DNA of 64,000 nt. Source: Oharaeibacter diazotrophicus. Its GTDB lineage: Bacteria > Pseudomonadota > Alphaproteobacteria > Rhizobiales > Pleomorphomonadaceae. Position 1 is the first letter of the stretch; every line of letters starts with the position of its first letter. The notes beneath the pieces are model-generated. The model worked only from the letters and a program-made list of their open reading frames with translations. It made no database searches and was not told the DNA's origin. The position numbers and the translations under genes are program-made. Below are positions 3,467 to 64,000 of this stretch, in pieces. The stretch covers positions 248,001 through 312,000 of the forward strand of contig NZ_SNXY01000009.1 in the NCBI RefSeq assembly GCF_004362745.1, in the 5' to 3' direction.

Positions 3467-4483
3467 ATGCCGAGCAAGATCGCTGACGTCGCGCGCCGTG
3501 CCGGCGTCTCCACGGCGACCGTCAGCCGTACGCTGTCCGCTCCCGACATGGTGCGGCCGGAGACCCGGCAACGCGTGATGGCCGCGGTGGCGGCGCTCGA
3601 CTACACGCCCAACGTCGCCGCCCGCAACCTGCGCTCCGGCTCGACCAACACCGTGCTGGTGGTACTGCCCAAGCTCGCGAACGGCTTCTTCGGCGAGGTG
3701 GTGCGCGGCGTCGAGGCGGAGCTGGCGCGCGAGGGCTACGGGCTGATCGTCAGCGACCTCGACGACGTCGAGGAGCGCGAGCAGCACGTGATCCGGCTGG
3801 TCGCCGCCGGTCACGTCGACGGCGTGCTGCTGTTCTCCGGCCGGATGCCGCGCTCGGGCGGGCGCAGCCTCGCCTGCTTCGGGCTGCCCGTGGTGGCCGC
3901 CAACGCCCGGATCGACCATCCGGGCGTGCCCAACGTCCTCGTCGACGAGCGTCCCGCCTCGGCGGCGCAGGTGCGCCACCTCCACGGGCTCGGCCACCGC
4001 CGCATCGGCTATCTCGCTTCGCTGCCCGGCAACGTCAACGACGTCCCGCGCTGGGCCGGCTTCCTCGACGGCCTCGCCGAGGTCGGGCTGCCGACGGAGC
4101 GGGCGCTTCGCTTCGAGGGCGACTATTCCTTCGCGTCCGGCGCCCGCAGCGCCGCCGCCTTCCTGGCGATGTCGCCCGACGAACGCCCGACCGGCATCGC
4201 CTCGGGATCCGACGAGATGGCGATCGCGTTCATGAACAGGATCCGGGCCGCCGGCGTCCGCGTTCCCGAGGAGGTCTCGGTGATCGGTTTCGACGGCATC
4301 GAGTTCGGCGCCTACTGCGAACCCGGCTTGACCACCATGCGCCAGCCGCAGCGCCCCGTCGGCGTCGCGGCGGCGCGCAAGTTGCTCGAAGGGCTCGACG
4401 GTGCGCCGGAGTTCCGGCTCGACGTCGAACTCGGGACGGAACTGGTACTGCGGGGCAGCACGGCTCCGCCGCCGCGGGCCTGA
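3467..4483 (+). CDS. LacI/GalR-family transcriptional regulator
   Basis: This 338-residue repressor-type protein has an N-terminal LacI helix-turn-helix (IADVARRAGVSTATVSRTLS, residues 4-23) and hinge helix (AARNLRSGSTNTVLVV). A periplasmic-binding-protein-like effector domain with FGCYC-type architecture follows (VIGFDGIEFGAYCEPGLTTM near the C-terminus). A strong AGGAGG ribosome site precedes the ATG. It directly follows guaD, so it may control purine use. LacI effectors are more often sugars, however, and no sugar operon is adjacent. The effector cannot be read from the sequence. Confidence 0.9.
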   Translation: MPSKIADVARRAGVSTATVSRTLSAPDMVRPETRQRVMAAVAALDYTPNVAARNLRSGSTNTVLVVLPKLANGFFGEVVRGVEAELAREGYGLIVSDLDDVEEREQHVIRLVAAGHVDGVLLFSGRMPRSGGRSLACFGLPVVAANARIDHPGVPNVLVDERPASAAQVRHLHGLGHRRIGYLASLPGNVNDVPRWAGFLDGLAEVGLPTERALRFEGDYSFASGARSAAAFLAMSPDERPTGIASGSDEMAIAFMNRIRAAGVRVPEEVSVIGFDGIEFGAYCEPGLTTMRQPQRPVGVAAARKLLEGLDGAPEFRLDVELGTELVLRGSTAPPPRA

Positions 4484-51580: not shown

Positions 51581-52591
51581 TCAGGGCGTCGGCGCGTCGG
51601 GGCGCATCAGGCCCTCGGCCTTGAGGTCGGCCCAGAGGGCGGACGGGATCGCGGCAGCGAGCAGGGCGAGGTTGGCGTCGAGTTCGCGCGGGCTCGCCAT
51701 GCCGGGGATGACGCAGGCGACGGCCGGGTGGGTCAGCGGGAAGGCGAGCGCGGCGGCCGGCAGCGCCACGCCGTGGCGCCGGCAAACCGCCTCGATCCGG
51801 CCGACGCGCTCCAGGATCTCCGCCGGCGCCGGGGCGTAGTTGTAGCGCGCGCCCGGTACCGGACCGGTGGCGAGGATGCCGGAGTTGAACGCGCCACCGA
51901 CCACGATCGACGCGCCGACCTTCTCGCAGCGCGGCAGGAAGGAGGCGAGCGCCTCCTGTTCCAGCAGCGTGTAGCGGCCGGCGAGCAGGAAGCAGTCCCA
52001 ATCGAGGTGGTCCATCGCCGCCTCGCAGACCTGCCACTCGTTGACGCCGAGGCCGATCGCCGACACCGCGCCCGACCGGCGCAACTCGTCCATCGCCCGG
52101 GCGCCGCCGTCCATGGCGATCCGGAAGGTCTCCTCGTGGGCGTCGCCGTGGGTGACCCGGCCGATGTCGTGCATCAGGAGGACGTCGACGCGGTCGAGGC
52201 CGAGGCGCTGCAGCGAGTGCTCGAAGGAGCGCATCACGCCGTCGTAGGAATAGTCGTAGACCGGCTCGAACGGCAGGGCGTCGACATAGTCGGCGCGGGC
52301 GGGATGGTCGCCCGGGTTCGGCTTCAGGACGCGGCCGACCTTGGTGGAGAGCACGAAGTCGCCGCGCGGCTTGTCGCGCAGGACGTCGCCGAGCCGGCGC
52401 TCGGACAGGCCGAAGCCGTAGAAGGGCGCAGTGTCGAAGAAGCGGAAGCCGGCGGCCCAGACCGCTTCCAGCAGCGCCTCGGCGTCGGCGCGCGGCACGG
52501 TGCGGAAAAGGTTGCCGAGCGGGGCGCCGCCGAAGCCGTAGGCGGTGACCCCGAGGCCGGAGCGGCCAAGCGGGCGGCGGGCGAAGTCCAT
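51581..52591 (-). CDS. Aldo/keto reductase (D-threo-aldose/L-fucose dehydrogenase type)
   Basis: This 336-residue NAD(P)-dependent TIM-barrel oxidoreductase opens with RPLGRSGLGVTAYGFGGAPLG. The catalytic Asp/Tyr are in FFDTAPFYGFGLSERRLG, the Lys is in VLSTKVGR and the His is in VLLMHDIGR. The HGDAHEETFRIAMDGGARAM insertion fits the pyridoxal 4-dehydrogenase/L-fucose dehydrogenase branch. It lies third after pdxH and xseB on the same strand; a role in B6 metabolism is therefore conceivable but unproven. Confidence 0.9.
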   Translation of the reverse strand: MDFARRPLGRSGLGVTAYGFGGAPLGNLFRTVPRADAEALLEAVWAAGFRFFDTAPFYGFGLSERRLGDVLRDKPRGDFVLSTKVGRVLKPNPGDHPARADYVDALPFEPVYDYSYDGVMRSFEHSLQRLGLDRVDVLLMHDIGRVTHGDAHEETFRIAMDGGARAMDELRRSGAVSAIGLGVNEWQVCEAAMDHLDWDCFLLAGRYTLLEQEALASFLPRCEKVGASIVVGGAFNSGILATGPVPGARYNYAPAPAEILERVGRIEAVCRRHGVALPAAALAFPLTHPAVACVIPGMASPRELDANLALLAAAIPSALWADLKAEGLMRPDAPTP

Positions 52592-52629
52592 CGCGGATCC
52601 GGGAAACGTGGTTGCGGAGCGTATGGCGG

Positions 52630-52875
52630 TCAGCCGACATCGAGCGGCTCGGTGCCCGCCGGGCGGCCGTCGGCGGCGAGGCGGATCTTCTCCACCCGCG
52701 CCTCGGCGGTCTTCAGCAGGGCGTCGCAATGGGCGCGCAGGGCATCGCCGCGCTCGTAGATCGCGATCGATTCCTCGAGCGGCACCGAGCCCTGTTCGAG
52801 GCGGGCGACGATGCCCTCGAGTTCCTTCAGCGCCTGCTCGAAGGAAAGCGCGGAGACGGCGGCGGCGGCGGCCAT
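52630..52875 (-). CDS. xseB: Exodeoxyribonuclease VII small subunit
   Basis: This 81-residue helical subunit binds several-fold to XseA in the single-strand exonuclease VII complex. The family signature [20 protein letters not shown] and the later [19 protein letters not shown] are clear. The C-terminal [20 protein letters not shown] is typical for alphaproteobacteria. It is 48 nt after pdxH and 38 nt before the aldo/keto reductase gene. The large subunit xseA is not in the window. Confidence 0.95.
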
Positions 52876-52923
52876 GGGTCTTGTCCTCTGGATGTCTCGG
52901 GGCGCGGCGGTCGGGCGGCGGCG

Positions 52924-53538
52924 TCAGGGATAGAGCCGCGCCTTCGACCAGCCGTCCGGGCCGGCGGTGAAGCGGACGCGGTCGTGCAGGCGGAACAGGC
53001 CGTCCTGCCAGAATTCGATCTCGACCGGCGCGACGCGCAGGCCCGTCCAGTGCGCCGGGCGGGGTACCTCGCCGACGGCGTACTTCAAGCCATACTCGGC
53101 GACGGCCTTCTCGAGCGCGAAGCGGCTCTCCAGCGGCTGCGACTGCTTGGAGGCCCAGGCGCCGATCCGGCTGCCGCGTGGGCGGCTCTGGAAATAGGCG
53201 TCGGCCTCGGCGTCCGACACGGTCGAGACGGTGCCGCGGACGCGGACCTGACGGCGCCGGCTCTTCCAGTGGAACAGCAGCGCCGCCTTGCCGGCGGCGA
53301 GGATCTCGCGGCCCTTGCGGCTCTCGAGGTTGGTGTAGAAGACGAAGCCGGCCTCGTCCCAGTCCTTCAGCAGCACCATGCGCACGTTGGGCAGGCCGTC
53401 GGGATCGACGGTGGCGACCGCCATGGCGTTGGGATCGTTGGGCTCGCTCGCCTCGGCCTCGGCCAGCCAGGCCGCGAACAGGCGGAACGGCTCGTCGGAG
53501 AGGGTGAAGTCGGCGGACGGGGCGTCGGCTGTCGTCAT
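52924..53538 (-). CDS. pdxH: Pyridoxamine/pyridoxine 5'-phosphate oxidase
   Basis: This FMN enzyme makes pyridoxal 5'-phosphate. The 204-residue protein has [26 protein letters not shown], with the FMN-binding [14 protein letters not shown]. Substrate-binding residues lie in RQVRVRG and in [14 protein letters not shown], and the C-terminal signature is [14 protein letters not shown]. All motifs look complete. The ATG chosen gives a short acidic N-terminus. It starts an operon pdxH-xseB-aldo/keto reductase. Confidence 0.95.
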
Positions 53539-53771
53539 GGCGGGGCGGAGGATCCGGTCGGGGCGCGCACGACAAGGGGTATAGAGCGCCGCGACCGGCG
53601 TGGAAACACCCGGCCGCTTCGGAGTAGGCTCGGTCCCCGAAGATTCGTGCGAGCGCGGACCATCTCCGTCGGGGACTGGACCATAACGCGAACGCACACC
53701 ACATGTGAGACCGAGTTCAGTCGGCGGCCCGGGGGCGGCCGGCAATCCCGCTCACGAGGACAGACGACCCC

Positions 53772-54773
53772 ATGCGCGATCCCTACGTGGTCCTGGGCGT
53801 GCCGAAGAGCGCGAGCGAGGCCGAGATCAAGAAGGCCTTCCGCAAGGCCGCCAAGCAGCATCATCCCGACGCCAACAAGGACGATCCCAAGGCGCAGGAC
53901 CGTTTCGCCGAGATCAACACCGCCTACGAGATCCTCGGCGACGCCGACAAGCGCCGCAAGTTCGACGCCGGCGAGATCGACGCCGAGGGCAAGCCGAAAT
54001 TCTCCGGCTTCGAGGGCTTCGACTTCGGCGGCGGCGGCGGCGCCCAGCGCGGCGGCTTCCGCTCGGCCGGCGGCGGCTTCGGCGGCCAGCGCGGCACCGA
54101 GGACATCCTGAACGACATCTTCGGCGACGCCTTCGCCGGCTTCGCCTCCGGCGCGCGCAAGACCGGCGGCGGACGCCGCCGCGCGGCCGGACCCGAGGCC
54201 GAGTTCGGCGCCTTCGCCGGCGGGCCGGGCGCCGGCGCCGCGGCCAAGGGCGCGGACACCATGGTGACCGCGCGGGTGCGGCTCGAAGATCTCGTCGGCT
54301 CCGGCAAGGTCCGCGTCACCCTGCCCTCGGGCAAGACGCTCGACGTCAAGATCCCCCTGGGCTTCGAACCGGGACAGCAGATGCGCCTCAAGGGCCAGGG
54401 CGGCGAGGGCGCGCCGCCGGGCGACGCCATCGTCATCCTGGTGCACGAGCCGCACCCGCTGTTCCGCCCCGACGGCTACAATCTCAGGCTCGACCTGCCG
54501 GTCTCGCTCGACGAGGCGGTGCTCGGCGCCAAGGTGCGGGTGCCGACGCTCGAGGGCGCGGTCGACATGACGCTGCCGGCCGGCACCACCGGCGCGCGGC
54601 CGTTCCGGCTGAAGGGCAAGGGCCTGCCGGACAAGGCCGGCGGGCGCGGCGACCTCTACGTCACACCGCGCGTGGTGCTGCCGGACGGCGCCGACGGCGG
54701 CCTCGAACAGCTGATGAAGCGCTGGCGCGAGGTGAAGCCCTATTCGCCGCGCGGCCCCGAGTTCGGCGGCTGA
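53772..54773 (+). CDS. DnaJ/CbpA-like J-domain co-chaperone
   Basis: This 333-residue DnaJ homologue stimulates DnaK ATPase activity. The J domain (residues 1-70) has the HPD motif in QHHPDANKDD. A Gly/Phe-rich segment (GGGGGAQRGG) is followed by two C-terminal substrate-binding domains (TLPSGKTLDVKIPLGFEPGQQMRLKG). The cysteine-rich zinc domain is missing, so it is type II, as in CbpA. The next gene encodes a DUF1499 protein 7 nt away. Confidence 0.92.
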   Translation: MRDPYVVLGVPKSASEAEIKKAFRKAAKQHHPDANKDDPKAQDRFAEINTAYEILGDADKRRKFDAGEIDAEGKPKFSGFEGFDFGGGGGAQRGGFRSAGGGFGGQRGTEDILNDIFGDAFAGFASGARKTGGGRRRAAGPEAEFGAFAGGPGAGAAAKGADTMVTARVRLEDLVGSGKVRVTLPSGKTLDVKIPLGFEPGQQMRLKGQGGEGAPPGDAIVILVHEPHPLFRPDGYNLRLDLPVSLDEAVLGAKVRVPTLEGAVDMTLPAGTTGARPFRLKGKGLPDKAGGRGDLYVTPRVVLPDGADGGLEQLMKRWREVKPYSPRGPEFGG

Positions 54774-54780
54774 CCCGGCG

Positions 54781-55554
54781 ATGAAGTCGCTGCCGCCGCG
54801 TCCGGCCCGCGCCGTCGGCCCCGCCCGTTTCTTCGGGGCGCTGGCCTTCGCGGTGCTGGCGGAGGCGGCGCTGGCGCGCCGGTTCGACCTCGTCGACGGC
54901 ACCACGCTGATGGCGGCGCTGGCGACGGTGCCGGTGATCGCCGCGGTCGGGATCGGCTGCGCCCTGGTCGCCTTCGCCGACGTCTGGCGCGACGGCTCGC
55001 CAGGCCTCGGGCGCGCCCTCGGCGGCTTCGCCCTGTCGGCGCTGGCGCTTGCGCCGCTCGCCGGGGCCGCAGGCGGCGCCCTGTTGTTCCCCCCGATCGA
55101 CGAGGTCTCGACCGACCTCGACGACCGCCCGGTGTTCCACGCGCGGCCGCCGCGGCCGGCCCTGCCGATCGAGACCCGCGCGCCCGTGACCGACTACGCC
55201 GACCTGCAGCGCAGCTTCTATCCCGACATCCTGCCGCGCTCGCTGCCGCTCTCGACCGTCGAAGCCCACGCCGTGGTGGCGCGCACGCTCGCCGAGCTCG
55301 GCTGGACCGTGACAGCCGAGGCCGAGCCGGCGAGCGAGGACGACACCGGCACGCTCGACGCCGAGGCACGCTCGCTGCTGCTCGGCCTGCCGATCGACGT
55401 CGCGGTGCGGATCGCGCCCGACGGCGCCGGCTCGCGCATCGACGTGCGCTCGGGATCGCAGATGCCGATGGTCGACCTCGGCGAGAACGCCCGGCGCATC
55501 CGTGCCTTCTTCGCCAAGCTCGACGAAGTCGCCAAGCGTCCCGCCGCCGGGTGA
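54781..55554 (+). CDS. DUF1499-family membrane protein
   Basis: This 257-residue protein has three N-terminal hydrophobic segments (FFGALAFAVLAEAAL; LATVPVIAAVGIGCALVA; GGFALSALALAPLAGAAGGAL). A periplasmic or cytosolic DUF1499 domain follows: VTDYADLQRSFYPDILPRSLPL, then VVARTLAELGWTVTAEA and the conserved FAKLDEV end. The family is common in alphaproteobacteria and has no proven function. The gene is 7 nt after the J-domain gene, suggesting co-transcription. Confidence 0.85.
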   Translation: MKSLPPRPARAVGPARFFGALAFAVLAEAALARRFDLVDGTTLMAALATVPVIAAVGIGCALVAFADVWRDGSPGLGRALGGFALSALALAPLAGAAGGALLFPPIDEVSTDLDDRPVFHARPPRPALPIETRAPVTDYADLQRSFYPDILPRSLPLSTVEAHAVVARTLAELGWTVTAEAEPASEDDTGTLDAEARSLLLGLPIDVAVRIAPDGAGSRIDVRSGSQMPMVDLGENARRIRAFFAKLDEVAKRPAAG

Positions 55555-55564
55555 CGACGGGCGG

Positions 55565-56470
55565 TCACGCCGCCGCGTAGGCGCCGGTGAGCACCGGGTC
55601 GCCGTCGGTTGCGACCACCCCCTTCTCGACCAGCCATTCCAGCTGCGCGAACACCGACAGGCCGGCCGCGCCCCAGAGCCTGCGGTCGGTGTCGGCGTAG
55701 ACGGTGGCGACGATCTCCGGGATCGTCCGCGCGCCCGCCGCGACGGCGGCGAGCACCGCGGCCTCGCGGGCGAGGCGGTGCTCGGCGAGCCCGGCGAGGA
55801 AGGCGTGGGCGTCGCACACCGGTCCGCCGTGGCCGGGCAGATAGAGCGCCTCGGGTCGCTCCGCGAGGCGGGCGAGCGAGGCCATGTAGGGCGCCATCGC
55901 GCCGTCGGGCGGGGCGACGATGGTGGTCGACCACGCCATGACGTGATCGCCGGAGATCAGCACCCCGGCCTCCTCGAGCGCGAAACAGAGGTGGTTGGCG
56001 GTGTGGCCGGGCGTCGCCAGCGCCGTCACCGGGCCGGCGGCGGTGGCGACGCGCTCGCCGTCCGACAGGATCCGGTCGGGCGCGTGGTCGGCGTCGGCGG
56101 AAGCGTCGAGGGCGGTGGCTTCGCCGAGGTGGAGCGGACGGGAGAAGACATGCGGGCCGCAGCCGATCACCGCCGCGCCCGTCGCCGCGGCGAGCGGACG
56201 GGCGCCCGGCGAATGGTCGCGGTGGGTGTGGGTGACCAGGATCTCGCGGATCGGCCGACCGCCGGCTGCGGCGAGGATGGCGGCGCGGTGCGCCGGGTCG
56301 TCCGGCCCGGGATCGACCACGACCAGCGCGGCGGTGCCGAGGAGATAGGTGTTGGTGCCGTGGAAGGTGTAGCCGCCGGGATTGCGGGCGGTGAGCCGGC
56401 GGATGCCGGGCACGAGTTCGACGGCTTCGCCATAGGCGGGATCGAAGTTGCGGTCGAAGCGGATCGCCAC
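55565..56470 (-). CDS. MBL-fold metallo-hydrolase (LACTB2-like)
   Basis: This 301-residue metallo-beta-lactamase-fold hydrolase has the metal motif HTHRDHS, in ILVTHTHRDHSPG. A second His is in LATPGHTANHLCF and the bridging Asp in VLISGDHVMAW. A helical C-terminal domain with TIPEIVATVYADTDRRLWGAA is typical of the LACTB2/MBLAC branch, some of which cleave RNA. The start lies 1 nt after the stop of the M48 protease gene, so the two are coupled. The substrate is unknown. Confidence 0.9.
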   Translation of the reverse strand: MAIRFDRNFDPAYGEAVELVPGIRRLTARNPGGYTFHGTNTYLLGTAALVVVDPGPDDPAHRAAILAAAGGRPIREILVTHTHRDHSPGARPLAAATGAAVIGCGPHVFSRPLHLGEATALDASADADHAPDRILSDGERVATAAGPVTALATPGHTANHLCFALEEAGVLISGDHVMAWSTTIVAPPDGAMAPYMASLARLAERPEALYLPGHGGPVCDAHAFLAGLAEHRLAREAAVLAAVAAGARTIPEIVATVYADTDRRLWGAAGLSVFAQLEWLVEKGVVATDGDPVLTGAYAAA

Positions 56471-56471
56471 G

Positions 56472-57551
56472 TCAGAAGTCTCCGCAGATGGATCGGATGG
56501 CGGCCCAGTCGGCCGCGGTGAGCGCCGGTCCGGCGCCGCGGTGTGCGGTGGCGGCGGCGGCCGTGATCGCCGCGGCGCGGTCGGCGCCGAGCGGGTGGGT
56601 CGAGATCAACCCGCCGGCGACGTCGCCGCCCGTCGTTTCGATCGTCGCGAGGAAGGGCGCCAGCGCGGTCGGATCGCCGCCGGCGGCGGCGAGCGCCGTC
56701 ACCGCGAAGGCGTCCGCCTCGCGCTCCGCGTCGCGCGAGTAGGCCGAGCCGATCACGAGCCGGCCGGCGCCGGCGACGAGGCCGGAGGGATCTCCGGTGA
56801 CCATGCCGAACATCAGGGCGAGGCCGCCCTCGTGGACCATCGCCTTCAGGCCGTGGCGCAGGTGGACGTGGCCGATCTCGTGGGCGAGCACGCCGGCGAA
56901 GGCGTCGGGCGAGGCGTGCCGCAGCAGCGCTTCGGTGACGACGATGGTGCCGCCGGGCAGCGCCAGGGCGTTCGGCACGTCCGACCGATGGACCGCCACG
57001 TGCCAGTCGATCGGCCTGACGCCGCCGGCGTCGGCGAGCCGGCCCGCGAGGGCGTCGAGGGCGCGCTGCCCGGCCGGGGCCTCGCAGCGCGGTCCGGCCG
57101 CGACGGTATCGAGCACGCCCGGCAGGCCGGCCCGGTCGATAGCGGCGACGACGTCGTCCGGCACCAGCGCCGCCGCCGAATCGGCGAGCGCGGTCAGCCC
57201 GCGCCACGCGCCGTAGACGGCGAGCACGACCAGCGCGAGGACGGCGACGGCGCCGATGGCGAGCCCGCCCGGCATCCGGCCGCGTCGCTCGCGCGGCAGC
57301 GCCTTCAGCGCGGCCTCGAAGGCGGCGCGCGTGGCAGGTTCGGCGATCTCGAGTCGTTCGGCGGCACCGCGGCGGGTCAGCACGAAGGCGTCGCGCTCGG
57401 TGCCGCGGACGAGGCCGCCGAACGGCCAGCGGCCGATCTCCTCGCCGGCGGCGCCGCGCAGCGTCAGCCCGCGCATGTCGAGCGCCACGCCGACGCCCCG
57501 TCCGGGTGCACCGGCGCGCTCGCGCAGCACCGCCCTGCCCTCGATCCACAT
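56472..57551 (-). CDS. M48-family membrane-associated metalloprotease
   Basis: This 359-residue Zn-protease has one membrane segment (AIGAVAVLALVVLAVYGAW) after a cytosolic N-terminal region of about 110 residues. The extracytoplasmic catalytic domain has the HEIGH motif in VLAHEIGHVHLRHG, and a downstream Glu in RDAEREADAFAV supplies the third Zn ligand. It resembles BepA/LoiP-type enzymes of envelope quality control, but with an added N-terminal domain. It overlaps no gene but is 1 nt from the MBL gene. Confidence 0.9.
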   Translation of the reverse strand: MWIEGRAVLRERAGAPGRGVGVALDMRGLTLRGAAGEEIGRWPFGGLVRGTERDAFVLTRRGAAERLEIAEPATRAAFEAALKALPRERRGRMPGGLAIGAVAVLALVVLAVYGAWRGLTALADSAAALVPDDVVAAIDRAGLPGVLDTVAAGPRCEAPAGQRALDALAGRLADAGGVRPIDWHVAVHRSDVPNALALPGGTIVVTEALLRHASPDAFAGVLAHEIGHVHLRHGLKAMVHEGGLALMFGMVTGDPSGLVAGAGRLVIGSAYSRDAEREADAFAVTALAAAGGDPTALAPFLATIETTGGDVAGGLISTHPLGADRAAAITAAAATAHRGAGPALTAADWAAIRSICGDF

Positions 57552-57740
57552 GCCCGAGACCTCCTTCGCCGCCGGCGCCCATCGTGCCGGTGCGGTGCCC
57601 GTCTGTCACCGCTCCGCAATTCGGCCGGAAATCCGCCGGTCGGCGGACGCCGCGGCGCCCTACCTCGTCCAAGCTCCAGGTCCACGCTCCGGTTCCACGG
57701 CGGCACCGGGGGGCACCGCCGCCGCACCGGGGGAGACACC

Positions 57741-58862
57741 ATGACCATGTTCGCCAGGACGCTTCTCGCCGCCACGCTGCTTTCGGCCGCACCCGCCGTC
57801 GCGCTCGCCGCCCCGGATGGGCAGCAGCGGCCGGTCGAGCGCGTCGAGGTCGCCTTCGTGCTCGACACCACAGGATCGATGGCCGACCTGATCGACGGCG
57901 CCAAGAAGAAGATCTGGTCGATCGCCGACGAGATCCGCCGCACCCGCCCGGACGCCGACATCCGCTTCGCCCTGGTCGGCTACCGGGATCGCGGCGACGT
58001 CTACGTCACCGACGTCACGGCCCTGACCGGCGACCTCCACGGCCTCTACGGCAGGCTGGTCGGCTACGAGGCCGACGGCGGCGGCGACTGGCCGGAGGCG
58101 GTCAACGAGGCGCTGGCGACGGCGGTGAACCGGCTCGAGTGGACCGACGGCGGGGCGACCCGCCGGATGGTGTTCCTGGTCGGCGACGCGCCGCCGCACA
58201 TGGACTACATCCAGGACGTCGCCTTCACCGATACGCTGAAGATCGCCGAACGCCGGGGCATCGTCGTCAACGCGGTGCAGGCCGGCGCGGCGGAGGACAC
58301 CGAGGTCGCCTGGCGCGCGATCGCCGCGCTCGGGAAAGGCGACTACGTCGCGATCCCGCAGTCGGGCAACGTCAGGGTGATCGAGACGCCCTACGACCAG
58401 CAGATCCGGGAGCTGCAGCTCCAGCTCAACCTCACCGTCGTGCCCTACGGCGACCGCGACCAGCGCGGCGCGGTGGAGGACAAGCTCCGCCTCAAGGCCC
58501 AGGCCGCCCCGGCGGCGGCGTCCGACATGGCCTCCTACGAGATCCGTCCGACGGCGCCGGCGGCACGCAGCGTCGTCACCGGCGGCGGCGACCTCGTCGC
58601 CGACGTCCAGTCCGGCGAGGCCGACCTCGCGACCGTCGACCGCGACGCGCTCCCGGAGGAGGTGCGCGACCTCGCGCCCGCCGAGCTCGAGGCGGCGGTG
58701 AAGGCGAAGATCGCCGAGCGCGAGCGGATCCAGGGCGAGGTCGCCGACCTCGTCGCCAAGCGCGACGCCTTCCTGAGCGAGGCGGCCGCCAAGGCCGGCC
58801 CCGCCGAGGGCGACAGCTTCGACGGCGCGATCCGGCAGACGATCGCCCGCCAGATGCTCTGA
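57741..58862 (+). CDS. Secreted von Willebrand factor A domain protein
   Basis: This 373-residue exported protein has a signal peptide (LLAATLLSAAPAVALA) and a vWA domain with the MIDAS motif VLDTTGSMADL (D-x-T-x-S form). A TALTGDL region and a later Asp in VGDAPPHMDY follow. DGGGDWPEAVNEAL is typical of periplasmic vWA proteins. The last 120 residues are helical and charged. It likely binds metal ions and a protein partner. GGGGGAG precedes the ATG. Confidence 0.88.
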   Translation: MTMFARTLLAATLLSAAPAVALAAPDGQQRPVERVEVAFVLDTTGSMADLIDGAKKKIWSIADEIRRTRPDADIRFALVGYRDRGDVYVTDVTALTGDLHGLYGRLVGYEADGGGDWPEAVNEALATAVNRLEWTDGGATRRMVFLVGDAPPHMDYIQDVAFTDTLKIAERRGIVVNAVQAGAAEDTEVAWRAIAALGKGDYVAIPQSGNVRVIETPYDQQIRELQLQLNLTVVPYGDRDQRGAVEDKLRLKAQAAPAAASDMASYEIRPTAPAARSVVTGGGDLVADVQSGEADLATVDRDALPEEVRDLAPAELEAAVKAKIAERERIQGEVADLVAKRDAFLSEAAAKAGPAEGDSFDGAIRQTIARQML

Positions 58863-58873
58863 CGGCGGCCGCG

Positions 58874-59284
58874 TCAGCCCGTGGACGCCGGCGGCTTGCG
58901 GCCGATCTCCTCGACCGCGCCGCCGGCGGCCTTCCAGGCGGTGAATCCGCCGGTGAGGTGCGAGACCGCGGGCAGGCCCATGTCCTGCGCCGTCCTGGTC
59001 GCCAGCGCCGAACGCCAAGCGCTGGCGCAGAAGAACACCGTGCGCCGGCCCTCGCCGAACACCGGCTTGAAATAGGGGCTGTCCGGGTCGATCCAGAACT
59101 CCAGCATGCCGCGGGGGCAGGAGAAGGCGCCGGGGATCGAGCCCTCGCGCTCGCGCTCACGGGGATCGCGCAGGTCGACGAACAGCACCTCGCCGGCGGC
59201 GGCGAGCGCGATCGCCTCGTCCACCGGCACCGCCGTGATCTCGGCCTCCGCCTCGCGCAGCAGGTCCTTGTAGCCCTTCCTCAT
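58874..59284 (-). CDS. Rhodanese-like domain protein
   Basis: This 136-residue cytosolic single-domain rhodanese may act as a persulfide carrier. The catalytic Cys is in VFFCASAWRSALA (loop C-A-S-A-W-R). EVLFVDLRDPREREREGSIPGAF and the HLTGGFTAWKAAGG end match the family. It is convergent with the vWA protein gene, with an 11-nt gap, and sits at the edge of the AT-rich island. Confidence 0.92.
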   Translation of the reverse strand: MRKGYKDLLREAEAEITAVPVDEAIALAAAGEVLFVDLRDPREREREGSIPGAFSCPRGMLEFWIDPDSPYFKPVFGEGRRTVFFCASAWRSALATRTAQDMGLPAVSHLTGGFTAWKAAGGAVEEIGRKPPASTG

Positions 59285-59467
59285 GCGGATCCTCCCGATC
59301 GTCGTCCGGTCGTGGGGGGGAGCGTAACGAGGGAGGCGGGCGGATTGAAGCGCTAACGGGCAGGTAGCCGCACGGGAATAGCCGGACTGGCCGCGGCCGC
59401 GCGGAGAGAGCGCGGCGCAGCTCCTCGCCGGCACCTATTTAATCTGCGATTCTCAATTCTACGCCGC

Positions 59468-59707
59468 TCACGTTATATCTTCTCTGTGCCTTGGAATATA
59501 TGATAGGCTATCGCTATTCCCATCGAAATGTATATATCCCGCCTCGCCGGACAAAATTACTATTCCATGCTTGAGAAACGCCCATGCATCTTTGTGAGAA
59601 TTATCAATAAACTCTCTCTTATCAAGATCGGCAACAACTATTCCTGATAAACTACTTCCGATATAAAGCAAATCCCCAACACCAATATCTATATTGTCGA
59701 CTTTCAT
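59468..59707 (-). CDS. Small protein, possible immunity protein
   Basis: This 79-residue acidic protein is encoded in DNA with much lower GC content than the surrounding genome. The motif pattern GDLLYIGSSLSGIVVADLD and AWAFLKHGIVILSGEAGYIHF resembles contact-dependent immunity proteins; this is from memory of the pattern and not from a search. Its ATG overlaps the TGA of the upstream 91-residue gene (ATGA), so it is translated with it. The base composition implies horizontal acquisition. No DNA-binding or membrane segment is present. Confidence 0.6.
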   Translation of the reverse strand: MKVDNIDIGVGDLLYIGSSLSGIVVADLDKREFIDNSHKDAWAFLKHGIVILSGEAGYIHFDGNSDSLSYIPRHREDIT

Positions 59708-59979
59708 TTGAGCGGCTCTACTTGAATAAAGCCAAATGGCGATGGTATTCCACCTGCACCATCAGACATCCAAAAAACACTTACAAACTGGAGCGGGGAA
59801 TGGCCTTCCGCATACAGAATATATTGGTTTTCTGGAAAATGCCAATGAGTTCCGCTGGGAGCGACTTTATCACGCGATAACCCATAGTGCCAACGGGAAC
59901 TATTCTTCCGGAAATATTCTGGCAAGGTGGACACATCAGCGGAGTAAGTTCGCCTGTATTCGCACCGCCTCTGTAGCAA
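59704..59979 (-). CDS. Hypothetical protein, possible toxin C-terminal domain
   Basis: This open frame of 91 codons is in low-GC DNA. The readable domain runs YRRTYSADVSTLPEYFRK, then NSSRWHYGLSRDKV and THWHFPENQYILYAEG, ending FIQVEPLK. No family is recognised. The TTG start is arbitrary, because sequence similar in composition continues upstream in another frame. The gene is probably the 3' part of a longer coding sequence broken by a frameshift. Its stop overlaps the next start, as in toxin-immunity pairs. A role as toxin domain is inferred only. Confidence 0.5.
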   Translation of the reverse strand: MLQRRCEYRRTYSADVSTLPEYFRKNSSRWHYGLSRDKVAPSGTHWHFPENQYILYAEGHSPLQFVSVFWMSDGAGGIPSPFGFIQVEPLK

Positions 59980-60340
59980 ATCCGTTGCTCTGACGACGGT
60001 CGTACAGCACGGAGACCCAATAGCAAGGCACCGTTACCTCATGGTACGCCATAAAGCGCCCCCTGAATTCGCTCCTGCCATCGAGTTCTGCCGAACGTAC
60101 CCATACACGCTCGGCCCGTCCCCCAGCCCCAGCGGTTCCGACCGCACATACCGCCGCAGAGAAGCGCCGTATTACCGGTGCCAGTTCCACGACAGTCCGT
60201 TCTCCAGCTGGAATCACGGGCCGGGGAAGCGGGCGTTGAGGCCAGCTATGGCTCGATCCGAGCAGGCGAACCACCCACGTCCCCACAGGGCCGCGCAGTC
60301 GGAATCGGATGGTGCGCGGGGGAACCCCATGGATGATATG
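59980..60340 (-). pseudogene. Frame-disrupted 5' part of the toxin-like gene
   Basis: In a frame shifted from the 91-codon gene, an uninterrupted beta-rich reading runs through GPVGTWVVRLLGS, ERTVVELAPVIRRF and RGRFMAYHEVTVPCYWVSVLYDRR. It stops just inside the next gene's 5' end (59936). It has no good start in frame; the nearest ATG (about 60330) is one base out, next to a C5 run. Two single-base shifts would join ATG, this part and the downstream 91 codons. A sequencing error in the C run cannot be excluded. Confidence 0.45.
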
Positions 60341-60366
60341 CCCCCACCGCCGCCACCCCGCTCCCG

Positions 60367-60825
60367 TCAGATCGGCAGCTTGGTCGTGCGCTTCACCGTG
60401 CGCAGCGTCAGCGTCGACATCACACGGACCACCCCGGGCAGCGGCGTCAGGATCTCGGTGTGGAGGCGTTCGAGGTCGGCGCTGTCGCGGTAGACGACGC
60501 GCAGCAGGTAGTCGTGCTGGCCGGCGAGCAGGTAGCACTCGGTGATCTCCGGCACCGTGCGCACCGCCGCCTCGAATTTCTCCAGCGCGTCGCGGCCCTG
60601 GCTGTCGAGGGTGACCGAGACGTAGGCGGTGCCGGCAAGGCCGGCGATGCGGGCGTCCAGCAGGGCGACGTAGCGGGCGACGAGACCGCTCTCCTCGAGC
60701 AGCCTGGTGCGCCTGAGACAGGCCGACGGCGAGAGGTGGACGCGCTCGGCGAGTTCGGCGTTGGTCAGCCGGGCGTTTTGCTGGAGCGCGATCAGGATCG
60801 CACGATCGGTGGCGTCGAGCTTCAT
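60367..60825 (-). CDS. Lrp/AsnC-family transcriptional regulator
   Basis: This 152-residue regulator has an N-terminal winged helix-turn-helix (DRAILIALQQNARLTNAELAERV, then LSPSACLRRTRLLEE) and a C-terminal RAM domain (ECYLLAGQHDYLLRVVYRD). It probably binds an amino acid and controls the divergent alanine dehydrogenase gene, 218 nt away, as AldR-type regulators do. The ATG with GAGAG upstream was chosen over an upstream in-frame alternative start that adds about 47 residues. Confidence 0.92.
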   Translation of the reverse strand: MKLDATDRAILIALQQNARLTNAELAERVHLSPSACLRRTRLLEESGLVARYVALLDARIAGLAGTAYVSVTLDSQGRDALEKFEAAVRTVPEITECYLLAGQHDYLLRVVYRDSADLERLHTEILTPLPGVVRVMSTLTLRTVKRTTKLPI

Positions 60826-61043
60826 CTCTCGAACTTCCTGCGACGAAACCGACGAACCATAGCACGATCTGCGAAGTTGCGGCCCCCGACGCCCTCCGGA
60901 TCGCAGGAAATTGCGTTGGGCCGAGCGCATGATTTCCGTCGTATCCGGCCCGGACGAGGCGGGCACGATGAGGTCGACAGCCTCCGCGGGGGAACGGGGG
61001 ACGCCGACGGGCCGGCAAGAACGACGATCGGAGGAGATCGAAG

Positions 61044-62162
61044 ATGCGCGTCGGTGTGCCCAAGGAGATCAAGGACCACGAGGATCGCGTCGGCCTGGTG
61101 CCGTCGTCGGTGCGCGAACTCGCCGGCCACGGCCACGAGGTGCTGGTGGAGACCGGCGCCGGCCGCGGCATCGGCGTCGACGACGAGGCCTATCGCGCCG
61201 CCGGCGCCCGCATCGTCGACGGCGCCGACGAGGTGTTCGCGACCGCGGACATGATCGTCAAGGTCAAGGAGCCGCAGGCGGTGGAGCGGCGCAAGCTGCG
61301 CGAGGGCCAGATCCTCTTCACCTATCTGCACCTCGCGCCCGATCCCGATCAGGCCCGCGACCTGATGGCCTCCGGCGCCACCTGCATCGCCTACGAGACG
61401 GTGACGGCCGCCAACGGCTCGCTGCCGCTGCTGGCGCCGATGTCGGAGGTGGCGGGCCGGATGGCGCCGCAGGTCGGCGCGCACTGCCTCGAGAACGCTG
61501 GCGGCGGCATGGGCGTGCTGCTCGGCGGCGTGCCGGGCGTGCTGCCGGCCGAGGTGGTGATCCTCGGCGGCGGCGTCGCCGGCACCAACGCGGCGCAGGT
61601 CGCGATCGGCCTCGGCGCCGACGTCACCGTCGTCGACCGTTCGCTCGACGTGCTGCGCCGGCTGGTCGCCACCTTCGGCTCGCGGGTCAAGACCGCCCAT
61701 TCCAACGCCGACACCATCGGCCGGCTGGTCACCCGCGCCGACCTCGTGATCTCCACCGTGCTGGTGCCCGGTGCCGCAGCGCCGAAGCTCGTCACCCGGG
61801 AGCACGTCGCCGCGATGAAGACCGGCTCGGTGCTGGTCGACGTCGCGATCGACCAGGGCGGCGCCGCCGAGACCTCGCGCGCCACCACCCACTCGAACCC
61901 GACCTACGTGGTCGACGGCGTGGTGCACTATTGCGTCGCCAACATGCCGGGCGGCGTCGCGCGCACGTCGGCCTTCGCGCTCAACAACGCGACCCTGCCC
62001 TTCACGCTGGCGATCGCCGACAAGGGCTGGAAGCGCGCCCTCGCCGAGGACCGCCACCTCGCCGCCGGCCTCAACGTCCACGCCGGCCGCATCACCTACA
62101 AGGCGGTCGCCGATGCCCTCGGCTTCGACTACCGCGACACCGCGCAGGCTCTCGCCGCCTGA
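61044..62162 (+). CDS. ald: Alanine dehydrogenase
   Basis: This enzyme catalyses reversible oxidative deamination of L-alanine to pyruvate and ammonia, with NAD+. The 372-residue protein starts [18 protein letters not shown]. The catalytic Lys lies in IVKVKEPQ and the His in FTYLHLAPD. The Rossmann motif is [18 protein letters not shown]-terminal [14 protein letters not shown] is diagnostic. GGAGGAG precedes the ATG. It is divergent from an Lrp gene and is likely induced by alanine. Confidence 0.96.
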
Positions 62163-62179
62163 ACCGAGTACCCGGAAAT

Positions 62180-62207
62180 CGGAAGGCGGACGCGCGTCCG
62201 CCTTCCG
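62180..62207. terminator. Perfect 28-bp palindrome between convergent genes
   Basis: CGGAAGGCGGACGC is followed directly by its exact reverse complement, forming up to a 14-bp stem (12 bp plus a small loop in practice). It lies 18 nt after the ald stop and 22 nt from the stop of the minus-strand secreted-protein gene. There is no T tract. Confidence 0.6.
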
Positions 62208-62228
62208 CCCCCCCGCCGATGCGGACGG

Positions 62229-62825
62229 TCAGTCGAAGAAGATCGTCACGTCCTCCTCGACCTTCGGCCCGAAGGTGTCGCGCTGGTTGGAGCGGCCGAT
62301 GAAAATGTCGGTGCCGTCGGCGAAGCTGTCGCCGTCGGAGTCGGTGCCGTAGAGCGAGCACTCGAACTGCCGGAAGACGGTGGGTGTCGGCTCGGCGATC
62401 TCGTCGGTCGGCATGGTCGTCGGGACGACGAGCGAGCGCGGCCGGTCCTTCCAGGCCGTGTTGATCGAAACGCGGTAGTCGATTCGCTCGGAGGCATTCG
62501 GCCGGCTCGCCCCGACGGGCTTCCAGAACACCGCGACGTAGACGCTGCAGCGCAGCGTATCGGTCGGCTCCACCCTCAGACCCGCCGGCGCGGTGTAGGA
62601 GAGGTTCATCGTGAGGCTGCCGGAGACGTAGGCGCTGTCGGCCGGCGGCGGCGGCGCGGCGACGGCGTCCTCTGGAACGGATCCGGTGGCGAGCGGCTCG
62701 AAGCGGCCGGTGGCCGGATCGAACCAGCCAGGGATCGCCCCCGGCGGCGGGCGGCCGGCCGCCGCCGACGCGGCCGAGGCCAGCAGCACGGCGGCGAGCG
62801 CCACGAGGCGGCGGGCCGGCCGCAT
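62229..62825 (-). CDS. Secreted protein of a tandem cluster, member 4 (longest)
   Basis: This 198-residue exported protein has a signal peptide ([20 protein letters not shown]). A Pro-rich linker is followed by a beta-rich region ([43 protein letters not shown]) and an acidic Asp/Ser stretch ([18 protein letters not shown]). [12 protein letters not shown] looks like a calcium-binding thrombospondin-type-3 or EF-like loop. Its ATG overlaps the stop of the preceding gene by one base; a GTG one codon earlier is an alternative. The overall layout is like its neighbours, but similarity is weaker. Confidence 0.75.
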
Positions 62826-63304
62826 CACAGCGCCCCGCTCATCGTCAGCTTGACCGTGGTGTCGTTCTTCGGCAGCGCGATGCTGCGCTGGATCGACCCG
62901 TAGGCGCCGTACTGCCGTCCACCGTCGAACCGGTAGTAGGACGGGCTGATCGAGACCGACATTTTGCCGGTCCGATCGGCGACCGACCAGCGATAGGGCA
63001 CCACGACCACGTAGCGCGCCTTGCGGCCGACCACCGACACCTGGACCGACGACGACGAGGTGTTGGAATAGGTGTCGTCGTACCAGGAGAGATAGGCGGC
63101 GACGCCGACGACGGCACCGTCGGGGATGGCGTCGTTGAAAACCAGCTCGCCGCTGATCCGGATCTTGCCGCGGGCGTCGATGCGTACGATCGCGGCCTCG
63201 GTGGCGACGACGGTGCCGGCGGGTTCCCCGTCGGCGCGGGCCGGGCCCGACCCGAGCACTGCGGCGGAAAGGGCTGCGGCGAGGACCAGGAGCTTGGGCG
63301 TCAC
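62825..63304 (-). CDS. Secreted protein of a tandem cluster, member 3
   Basis: This 159-residue exported protein has a signal peptide (LLVLAAALSAAVLGSGPARA). The mature part contains VVGVAAYLSWYDDTYSN, then ARYVVVVPYRWSVADRTGKMSV and ends SIALPKNDTTVKLTMSGAL. This aligns by eye with members 1 and 2, and so forms one family. The GTG start follows GGGAGA at a good distance. The Ser/Thr-rich strands suggest a beta-sandwich. No known family is recognised. Confidence 0.8.
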   Translation of the reverse strand: MTPKLLVLAAALSAAVLGSGPARADGEPAGTVVATEAAIVRIDARGKIRISGELVFNDAIPDGAVVGVAAYLSWYDDTYSNTSSSSVQVSVVGRKARYVVVVPYRWSVADRTGKMSVSISPSYYRFDGGRQYGAYGSIQRSIALPKNDTTVKLTMSGAL

Positions 63305-63331
63305 GGCATCGTCTCCCAGGATCGAGAACCT

Positions 63332-63721
63332 TCAGAGTGCGGCCGGCACGTGGACCGTGGTGACGCCGCCGCGGGGCAGCGGCAGCGTGAGGTTGAGCGC
63401 TGTGGACCGTCCGGTGGTGCCCGACGACACCGTCACGCCGACGCGGACCACCGTGTCGGCGGGATCGAGGTCGACGCGATAGGGCAGTTCGATCGCGACC
63501 CGCCCGCCCTTCGGCACGGCGGTGACCGTGGCGCTGCCGGAATAGTTGAACGACCCGAAGCGCGCGGTCGCACCGACCTGGACGCCGGGCAGCGACGTGC
63601 CGCCGCCGTCGAGGAACACGGTGGCGACGACGCGGATCGTGCCGGTACGCTCGGCCGCGCCGGCGGAACTCGCGGCGACCAGTGCCGCCGCGGCGGCCAG
63701 GGCGATCGGGAAGCCTCGCAT
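63332..63721 (-). CDS. Secreted protein of a tandem cluster, member 2
   Basis: This 129-residue exported protein has a signal peptide (FPIALAAAAALVAASSAGAA). The mature part has VQVGATARFGSFNYSGSA, then RVAIELPYRVDLDPADTVVRV and a C-terminal LPLPRGGVTTVHVPAAL. The pattern LPYR...D...V...LPLP...V...L is shared with its neighbours. GAGGAGA precedes the ATG. It is 27 nt from member 3 and 26 nt from member 1. Function is unknown. Confidence 0.8.
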   Translation of the reverse strand: MRGFPIALAAAAALVAASSAGAAERTGTIRVVATVFLDGGGTSLPGVQVGATARFGSFNYSGSATVTAVPKGGRVAIELPYRVDLDPADTVVRVGVTVSSGTTGRSTALNLTLPLPRGGVTTVHVPAAL

Positions 63722-63747
63722 GGCGGTCGTCTCCTCGGCGCGCAGGG

Positions 63748-64000
63748 TCAGAGGGCGAGACGGACGGGGATCACGAGCCGTCCACCGGCCTGCGGCAGGG
63801 GGACGCGGAGCATCTGGCTGGTCCGTGGCCGGGCGGTGCCGACCGCGGTCGAGGCGTCGACCCAGACGGTCAGCATCGTCTTCTCGTCGGCAGCCCGGAA
63901 GCCGTAGGGCAAGGCCGCGGTGTAGGAGGCGGTGGCGCCGACGCGCCGCGCGGCGCCCTCCGTACGGTAGTCGTTGTAGCTGCGCTCGGTCGCGGTGCCG
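63748..64000 (-). CDS. Secreted-family protein of a tandem cluster, member 1 (partial, 5' end outside)
   Basis: Only the last 83 residues are inside the window. They include RRVGATASYTAALPYGFRAADEKTMLTVWV-type sequence and the end VPLPQAGGRLVIPVRLAL. These match the C-terminal half of members 2 and 3 (GATA...LPY...D...V...LP...L). The stop is at 63748-63750. The start and any signal peptide lie beyond the window edge, so the cluster may contain more copies upstream. Confidence 0.75.
   Translation of the reverse strand, partial: GTATERSYNDYRTEGAARRVGATASYTAALPYGFRAADEKTMLTVWVDASTAVGTARPRTSQMLRVPLPQAGGRLVIPVRLAL

Follow-up and report, generated by a model that had tools for sequence, protein, structure and literature searches.

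A four-gene set of exported proteins with a predicted beta-sandwich domain, present in two diverged copies in Oharaeibacter diazotrophicus

A run of small genes for apparently secreted proteins lies at the end of a 64,000-nt stretch of the Oharaeibacter diazotrophicus genome (contig NZ_SNXY01000009.1, positions 248,001 to 312,000; hereafter the window), and raises the question of whether its products belong to one family and act together. A preliminary description of the DNA had taken the run for a tandem amplification of secreted beta-proteins, possibly a surface assembly or a defence or adhesion system, continuing past the window edge. The host is a soil-type bacterium with a genome of 4.99 Mb. 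The best reading of the data presented here is an undescribed, fast-diverging family of exported proteins with a predicted beta-sandwich domain, co-expressed as a set of four.

When the contig is read past the window edge, the locus (cluster 1) comprises exactly four minus-strand genes in the order A1-B1-C1-D1. A1 (63748-64290, equal to 3748-4290 of stretch L009; 180 aa) has positions 63748-64000 inside the window and its start 290 nt beyond the edge, and is followed by B1 (63332-63721, 129 aa), C1 (62825-63304, 159 aa, GTG start) and D1 (62229-62825, 198 aa), giving a length order of long-short-short-long. The close spacing described previously was confirmed, with gaps of 26 nt and 27 nt and then a 1-nt overlap in which the ATG of D1 meets the stop of C1 (TGATG); translation of D1 most likely begins with the ATG at 62825 and not at position 62828. 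RBS-like purine-rich runs precede A1, B1 and C1. The cluster thus does extend beyond the edge, but with the remainder of A1 and no amplification: four genes and not "at least four". Further copies are ruled out, as the contig holds no fifth copy upstream of A1 and carries there a divergent 113-aa ORF without family, a tRNA (uracil-5)-methyltransferase-like gene and an S4/FtsJ methyltransferase gene.

Signal peptides had been proposed for the complete members, and all four proteins, A1 to D1, begin with a hydrophobic stretch followed by (-3,-1) cleavage-like sites, as judged by a simple hydropathy script (not SignalP) and by eye. A1, B1 and C1 contain no cysteine, hence no lipobox, and D1 has cysteines at positions 93 and 156 only. 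The GC3 of the cluster 1 genes (0.90-0.93) is close to that of their neighbours (0.92-0.97), leaving a recent foreign origin unsupported. D1 converges with an alanine dehydrogenase gene, and between the two gene ends lies a perfect 12-bp GC-rich hairpin (62180-62207), around which a 53-nt stretch folds at -37.7 kcal/mol (z -4.8); this is likely a two-way terminator without a T run. The one sigma-70 match in a scan of L009 2050-4900 is on the opposite strand, the scan gave no site resembling a terminator with a T run, and no shared promoter motif is claimed after inspection of the upstream regions by eye.

Two features of the surroundings are recorded in their own right. The GC content of the window falls to about 0.50 at 59300-60200, against about 0.70 over most of the surrounding sequence, and the two overlapping minus-strand ORFs in this stretch (59468-59707, 79 aa; 59704-59979, 91 aa) have a GC3 of 0.33-0.43 and no Pfam match at E<=0.01; this is possibly a small foreign island. 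On the other side, L009:9519-9905 (minus strand) encodes a small protein of 128 aa with a signal-peptide-like start, no Pfam match at E<=0.01 and no visible kinship to the cluster.

The same genome harbours a second, unlinked four-gene cluster on contig C6, on the plus strand and in the same order: A2 (L013:8043-8549), B2 (L013:8564-8962), C2 (L013:9055-9507) and D2 (L013:9537-10184), with gaps of 14, 92 and 29 nt. It also carries a single gene, S (L021:5632-6126). Cluster 2 and S were the sole matches when A1, C1 and D1 were each searched against 20 genomes of the family with every first-look candidate scored. The proposed tandem amplification finds no support as an open-ended array; a four-gene unit is present twice in the genome with its order kept. 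About 0.7 kb upstream of S ends a 775-aa ORF (L021:2578-4905, plus strand) rich in GGxGDD-like repeats, which are presumably of the RTX type.

Genes at the same position in the two clusters are clearly related. Smith-Waterman comparison of the mature proteins gave Z 10.9 for A1-A2, 13.2 for B1-B2, 27.1 for C1-C2 and 11.6 for D1-D2, each with 0/300 shuffles as good, the shuffles keeping composition but not strand periodicity. Links within cluster 1 are weak (A1-B1 Z 3.8, A1-C1 3.7, B1-C1 2.5), so that the kinship of A1, B1 and C1 becomes clear only via the members of cluster 2. All four cluster 1 genes have the same-position gene as best partner; in the reverse direction this holds for four of four by raw score and two of four by Z, the exceptions being A2 and B2, whose Z is greater against C1 than against A1 or B1. 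In domain trees (IQ-TREE, 13 and 11 domains; unrooted, with mostly weak supports) C1 and C2 pair with supports of 74 and 79 and A1 and A2 with 43 and 69, while B1 and B2 are sisters in neither. The data are read most simply if the four-gene set predates the copying of the block, a view that the domain trees do not contradict and do not firmly support.

What unites the proteins apart from their order is a domain and a motif, which are distributed differently. A1, B1 (LPYR...LPLP) and C1 (VPYRW...IALP) do share what was previously noted for the first three members, namely a PY strand, an acidic turn and an LP..G strand at the C-terminus, and with the motif removed, A1, A2, B1, B2, C1, C2 and S are still connected by way of one another (1000 shuffles). 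From the host genome, the domain profile A5 retrieves S and the A, B and C members of both clusters, all of them its own seeds, and nothing more at E<=1. At least three members, A1, B1 and C1, are best explained as each carrying one copy of a beta-sandwich domain that is undescribed and about 110 residues long.

The motif was missed in the preliminary description. Just after the signal peptide, A1, A2, D1, D2 and, in a weaker form, S carry (P)PG.IPG.FDPATG.F.P(L); the longer members A1 and D1 share GW[YF]DPATxRFxP in their N-terminal parts (GWYDPATDRF in A1, outside the window). Within the four-gene set it sits on the first and last gene only, B1 for instance being without it. The 26-residue motif of D1 (62676-62753) is identical to that of D2 at 19 positions (73%; Z 15.2), and the A1/D1 comparison gave Z 11.2; that between A1 and S is weak (Z 2.2, 36/1000 shuffles equally good). 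A motif profile built from the five segments of A1, A2, D1, D2 and S necessarily matches these seeds; beyond them it found nothing at E<=1e-3 in the host genome or in 19 other genomes of the family. The remaining 22 of its 27 rows were weaker (E 0.005-0.94), 20 in other genomes and two in the host, and none of the ten inspected reads as a signal-peptide protein with a beta-domain.

The D proteins show how far the two elements can part. With the motif removed, D1 and D2 have a Z of 0.3 (1000 shuffles) as opposed to 15.2 for the motif, meaning that at the D position the tag was kept and the domain was not. The D1 domain reaches at best Z 3.3 against any other member, with 10/1000 shuffles equally good, and judged by its sequence is not detectably related to the beta-domain family; the D2 domain matches B1 (Z 8.2, 0/1000 shuffles), and D2 scores E 0.92 with the family profile A4. 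The tie of D1 to the family lies in the motif, because its domain is without detectable kinship and its structural model is poor. The earlier claim that the members are mostly paralogous accordingly stands for A1, B1 and C1, but not for the D1 domain, which is linked by the motif only. Member four was rightly described as longer and diverged with an Asp-rich loop. This 12-residue loop (62307-62342, read from the translation) is present in D1 and absent from the other translated members, D2 included. It fits DxDxDxxxDxxD, the consensus of EF-hand and thrombospondin-3 calcium loops, and gave no EF-hand or thrombospondin-3 match in Pfam; calcium binding by D1 is at this point a sequence pattern in one protein.

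Outside the host, relatives are few. Profile A4 found homologues in four of 396 other genomes drawn from the order and none in 384 other genomes drawn from the class, and the slightly larger profile A5 found none in 397 drawn from the phylum; these draws overlap in part, and the carrier counts are lower bounds, because for most of the rows scoring was limited to 11 first-look candidates. The carriers are Chenggangzhangella methanolivorans CHL1, Oryzibacter oryziterrae COJ-58, an uncultured Pleomorphomonas MAG and a Pseudoxanthobacter soli MAG; in the families of two of them, one of 18 and one of three genomes are positive, namely the carriers themselves. Three of the four came to light with the first profile, A3, and were then among the seeds of A4; one A3 row (G313, E 8.6e-4) was dropped as false, as it has an in-frame TGA and was not recovered with A4. 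A search for related loci with C1 alone covered 592 candidate stretches without finding a relative, and tblastn returned no match for S in plasmids or C1 in phages. In the Pleomorphomonas MAG the homologue occurs on two near-identical contigs (L053, L054), probably an assembly duplicate.

Like the cluster proteins, the single homologues have a signal-peptide-like start and a domain some 110-125 aa long, which contains a P(Y/F/-)xW-type strand and, C-terminally, a P..G.T strand. Unlike them, they lack the GxFDPATG motif, have no second A4 match nearby and carry two cysteines 29-31 residues apart, a pair found in all five stand-alone proteins (S and those of the four species) and missing from the mature A, B and C proteins of either cluster. 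No family name was found for them. Each carrier gave one A4 match per 10-11 kb stretch with no tandem partner detected (one of the two Pleomorphomonas MAG contigs), with the reservation that A4 is blind to D-type domains, as the E value of D2 illustrates, and could miss D-type partners beside the single genes. The tandem arrangement is kept between the two host loci but not seen in the four other species; as the four-gene set was not found in another species, its conservation rests on one genome.

The preliminary description placed the proteins in no known family, and this was borne out. A1 to D1 have no significant match in Pfam or NCBIfam, and no pilin or fimbrial family was listed at a limit of E<=10, although the HMMER filters drop most rows above 0.1. 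All rows from Pfam, NCBIfam and PHROGs have E>=0.014 and fall below the curated cut-off where one is shown; the best PHROGs row has E 0.05. DUF1942, which we take to be MPT63-like, scored at best 13.4 bits, for A2, against a cut-off of 22.4, so that membership is not supported; in a run of 11 domain sequences, one reached it at E 0.046. Among titles and abstract openings of the literature, no published description of these proteins or of such an assembly was found.

The mature part of C1, modelled with AlphaFold2 from seven sequences, is predicted with confidence to be an eight-strand beta-sandwich (pLDDT 90.1, pTM 0.79), in agreement with the earlier view of beta-proteins for this member. The alignment of D1 with its relatives was unstable in register, and D1 was therefore folded alone, yielding an all-beta model of low confidence (pLDDT 43.8). 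The C1 model had no match at E<=0.001 either in a viral fold library or, by Foldseek, in the PDB, where the best row was a streptococcal pilus adhesin (9.8e-3). VIA-align returned many sandwich folds, none distinctive, with Z up to 7.5, every row lying below the value of 8 under which, by the tool's own note, a score may mean only a common arrangement; one of them is a rhamnogalacturonan lyase domain (3.0 A over 82 residues). Sequence profile searches of the PDB gave nothing with A3, and with A5 a best E of 0.039 (fibronectin-binding protein A).

One may envisage that the operon yields four exported soluble proteins which, leaving the cytoplasm together, would form a hetero-oligomer, either periplasmic or located at the cell surface. 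The beta-sandwich domains could offer surfaces for binding or packing that are free to change, and the motif carried by A and D, which is the best-conserved element of D1 and D2, may dock the complex to a common partner. In a tree that is unrooted, S and the single-copy, Cys-paired relatives possibly lie near a stand-alone ancestor, and members A to C of the operon would then have lost the Cys pair after duplication. We infer that the set of four probably forms an extracytoplasmic complex; the fuller proposal of an exported set that assembles outside the cytoplasm, with variable sandwich surfaces and a terminal tag docking a partner, is tentative and falls somewhat short of an even chance. Its most specific form is an undescribed exported hetero-oligomer of the Hyphomicrobiales, with a fixed gene order, a tag (PG.IPG.FDPATG.F.PL) on the first and last members that in the D pair is more strongly constrained than the domain following it, a passage from a Cys-paired ancestor to a disulfide-free assembly, and two copies; taken as a whole this is doubtful.

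Alternatively, the proteins could be independent secreted ligand-binding modules, for instance for carbohydrates, that are co-transcribed without forming a complex, different ligands explaining the fast divergence. The strong divergence of the domains would suit this idea, as would rhamnogalacturonan-lyase and starch-binding or CBM-type domains among the VIA-align rows of C1 (Z 5.5-7.5), but these values are again in the range of a mere common arrangement, no CBM family matched above its cut-off, and the fixed gene order and shared motif are left unexplained; we regard it as unlikely, yet of some weight. The surface assembly of the preliminary description, in the sense of pilin-like or other surface-polymer subunits, is in keeping with exported beta-sandwich proteins encoded by several paralogues per operon, with the Bacteroidales adhesin or fimbrial chains 3liu, 5cag, 3r4r, 3up6 and 6jzk in VIA-align and with the streptococcal pilus chains that lead the Foldseek list. 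However, the Bacteroidales chains score Z 6.0-6.8, the level of many unrelated sandwiches, the pilus rows have TM-scores of 0.14-0.24 of the query, and no pilin family was matched. Nor did reading the ORF lists of window 52000-64000, L009 2000-12000 and L013 6000-14000 by eye reveal an usher, a chaperone, a sortase or a gene for secretion; Pfam on ten selected ORFs around the three loci gave alanine dehydrogenase, RNA methyltransferases, UbiA, a solute-binding protein, or nothing. A surface assembly of this kind is quite improbable, and what speaks for adhesion is a weak resemblance in fold.

It is also conceivable that D1 has no kinship with the domain family of A to C, the two having merely signal peptides and a short motif in common, as the low Z of the D1 domain against every other member would allow. 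The 73% identity of the D1 and D2 motifs speaks against this, as do the match of the D2 domain to B1, though not to the family profile, and the low-confidence D1 model, which is likewise all-beta, and we give it little credence. If the proteins were secreted effectors, toxins, decoys or defence proteins that conflict has diversified, strong divergence and a patchy distribution would be accounted for, but a role in defence found no support in these searches: PADLOC gave no matches for A1-D1 and S at E<=1, tblastn of S in plasmids and of C1 in phages was empty and GC3 is ordinary; this reading is very unlikely. We retain, as the preferred explanation, an exported set of four that would assemble outside the cytoplasm.

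These observations bring to light an exported domain family that lacks annotation but has named relatives, including two designated strains, and a confident predicted fold for one member. They also provide a test case in one genome, which keeps two diverged four-gene copies whose terminal tag is better conserved, between D1 and D2, than the domains. Should the tag be a docking signal, a small extracytoplasmic assembly would be revealed, one without a description in the titles and abstract openings surveyed.

Several known systems resemble parts of this picture. The secretin pilotins of T3SS and T2SS are, like C1, small exported single beta-sandwiches, and the C1 model aligns with them at Z 7.4 over 97 residues (2yjl, 3.3 A) and 7.2 over 103 (5wec), tied with unrelated folds. 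In an excerpt of PMC3276575 the pilot is described as usually a lipoprotein; membership is not supported here, the lipobox cysteine after the signal peptide being absent from all four proteins. Fimbrial or adhesin chains of systems other than chaperone-usher align with C1 at Z 6.0-6.8, among many sandwiches, and a chaperone-usher pilin is not supported, no linked chaperone or usher gene having been seen in the ORF lists read and no pilin or fimbrial profile having matched. Starch-binding and transthyretin-like sandwiches, which we take to be CBM20 and TTR-related, share the overall arrangement of C1 with Z of about 5.5-6.9, in the range of common arrangements, and no CBM20 or starch-binding profile matched a cluster protein above cut-off. 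The short [YF]DPAT..F of the cluster motif resembles the core of RHS repeats, YDPxTGRF. Unlike an RHS protein, A1 and D1 have no RHS match in Pfam, and the motif of the clusters stands singly, directly behind a signal peptide.
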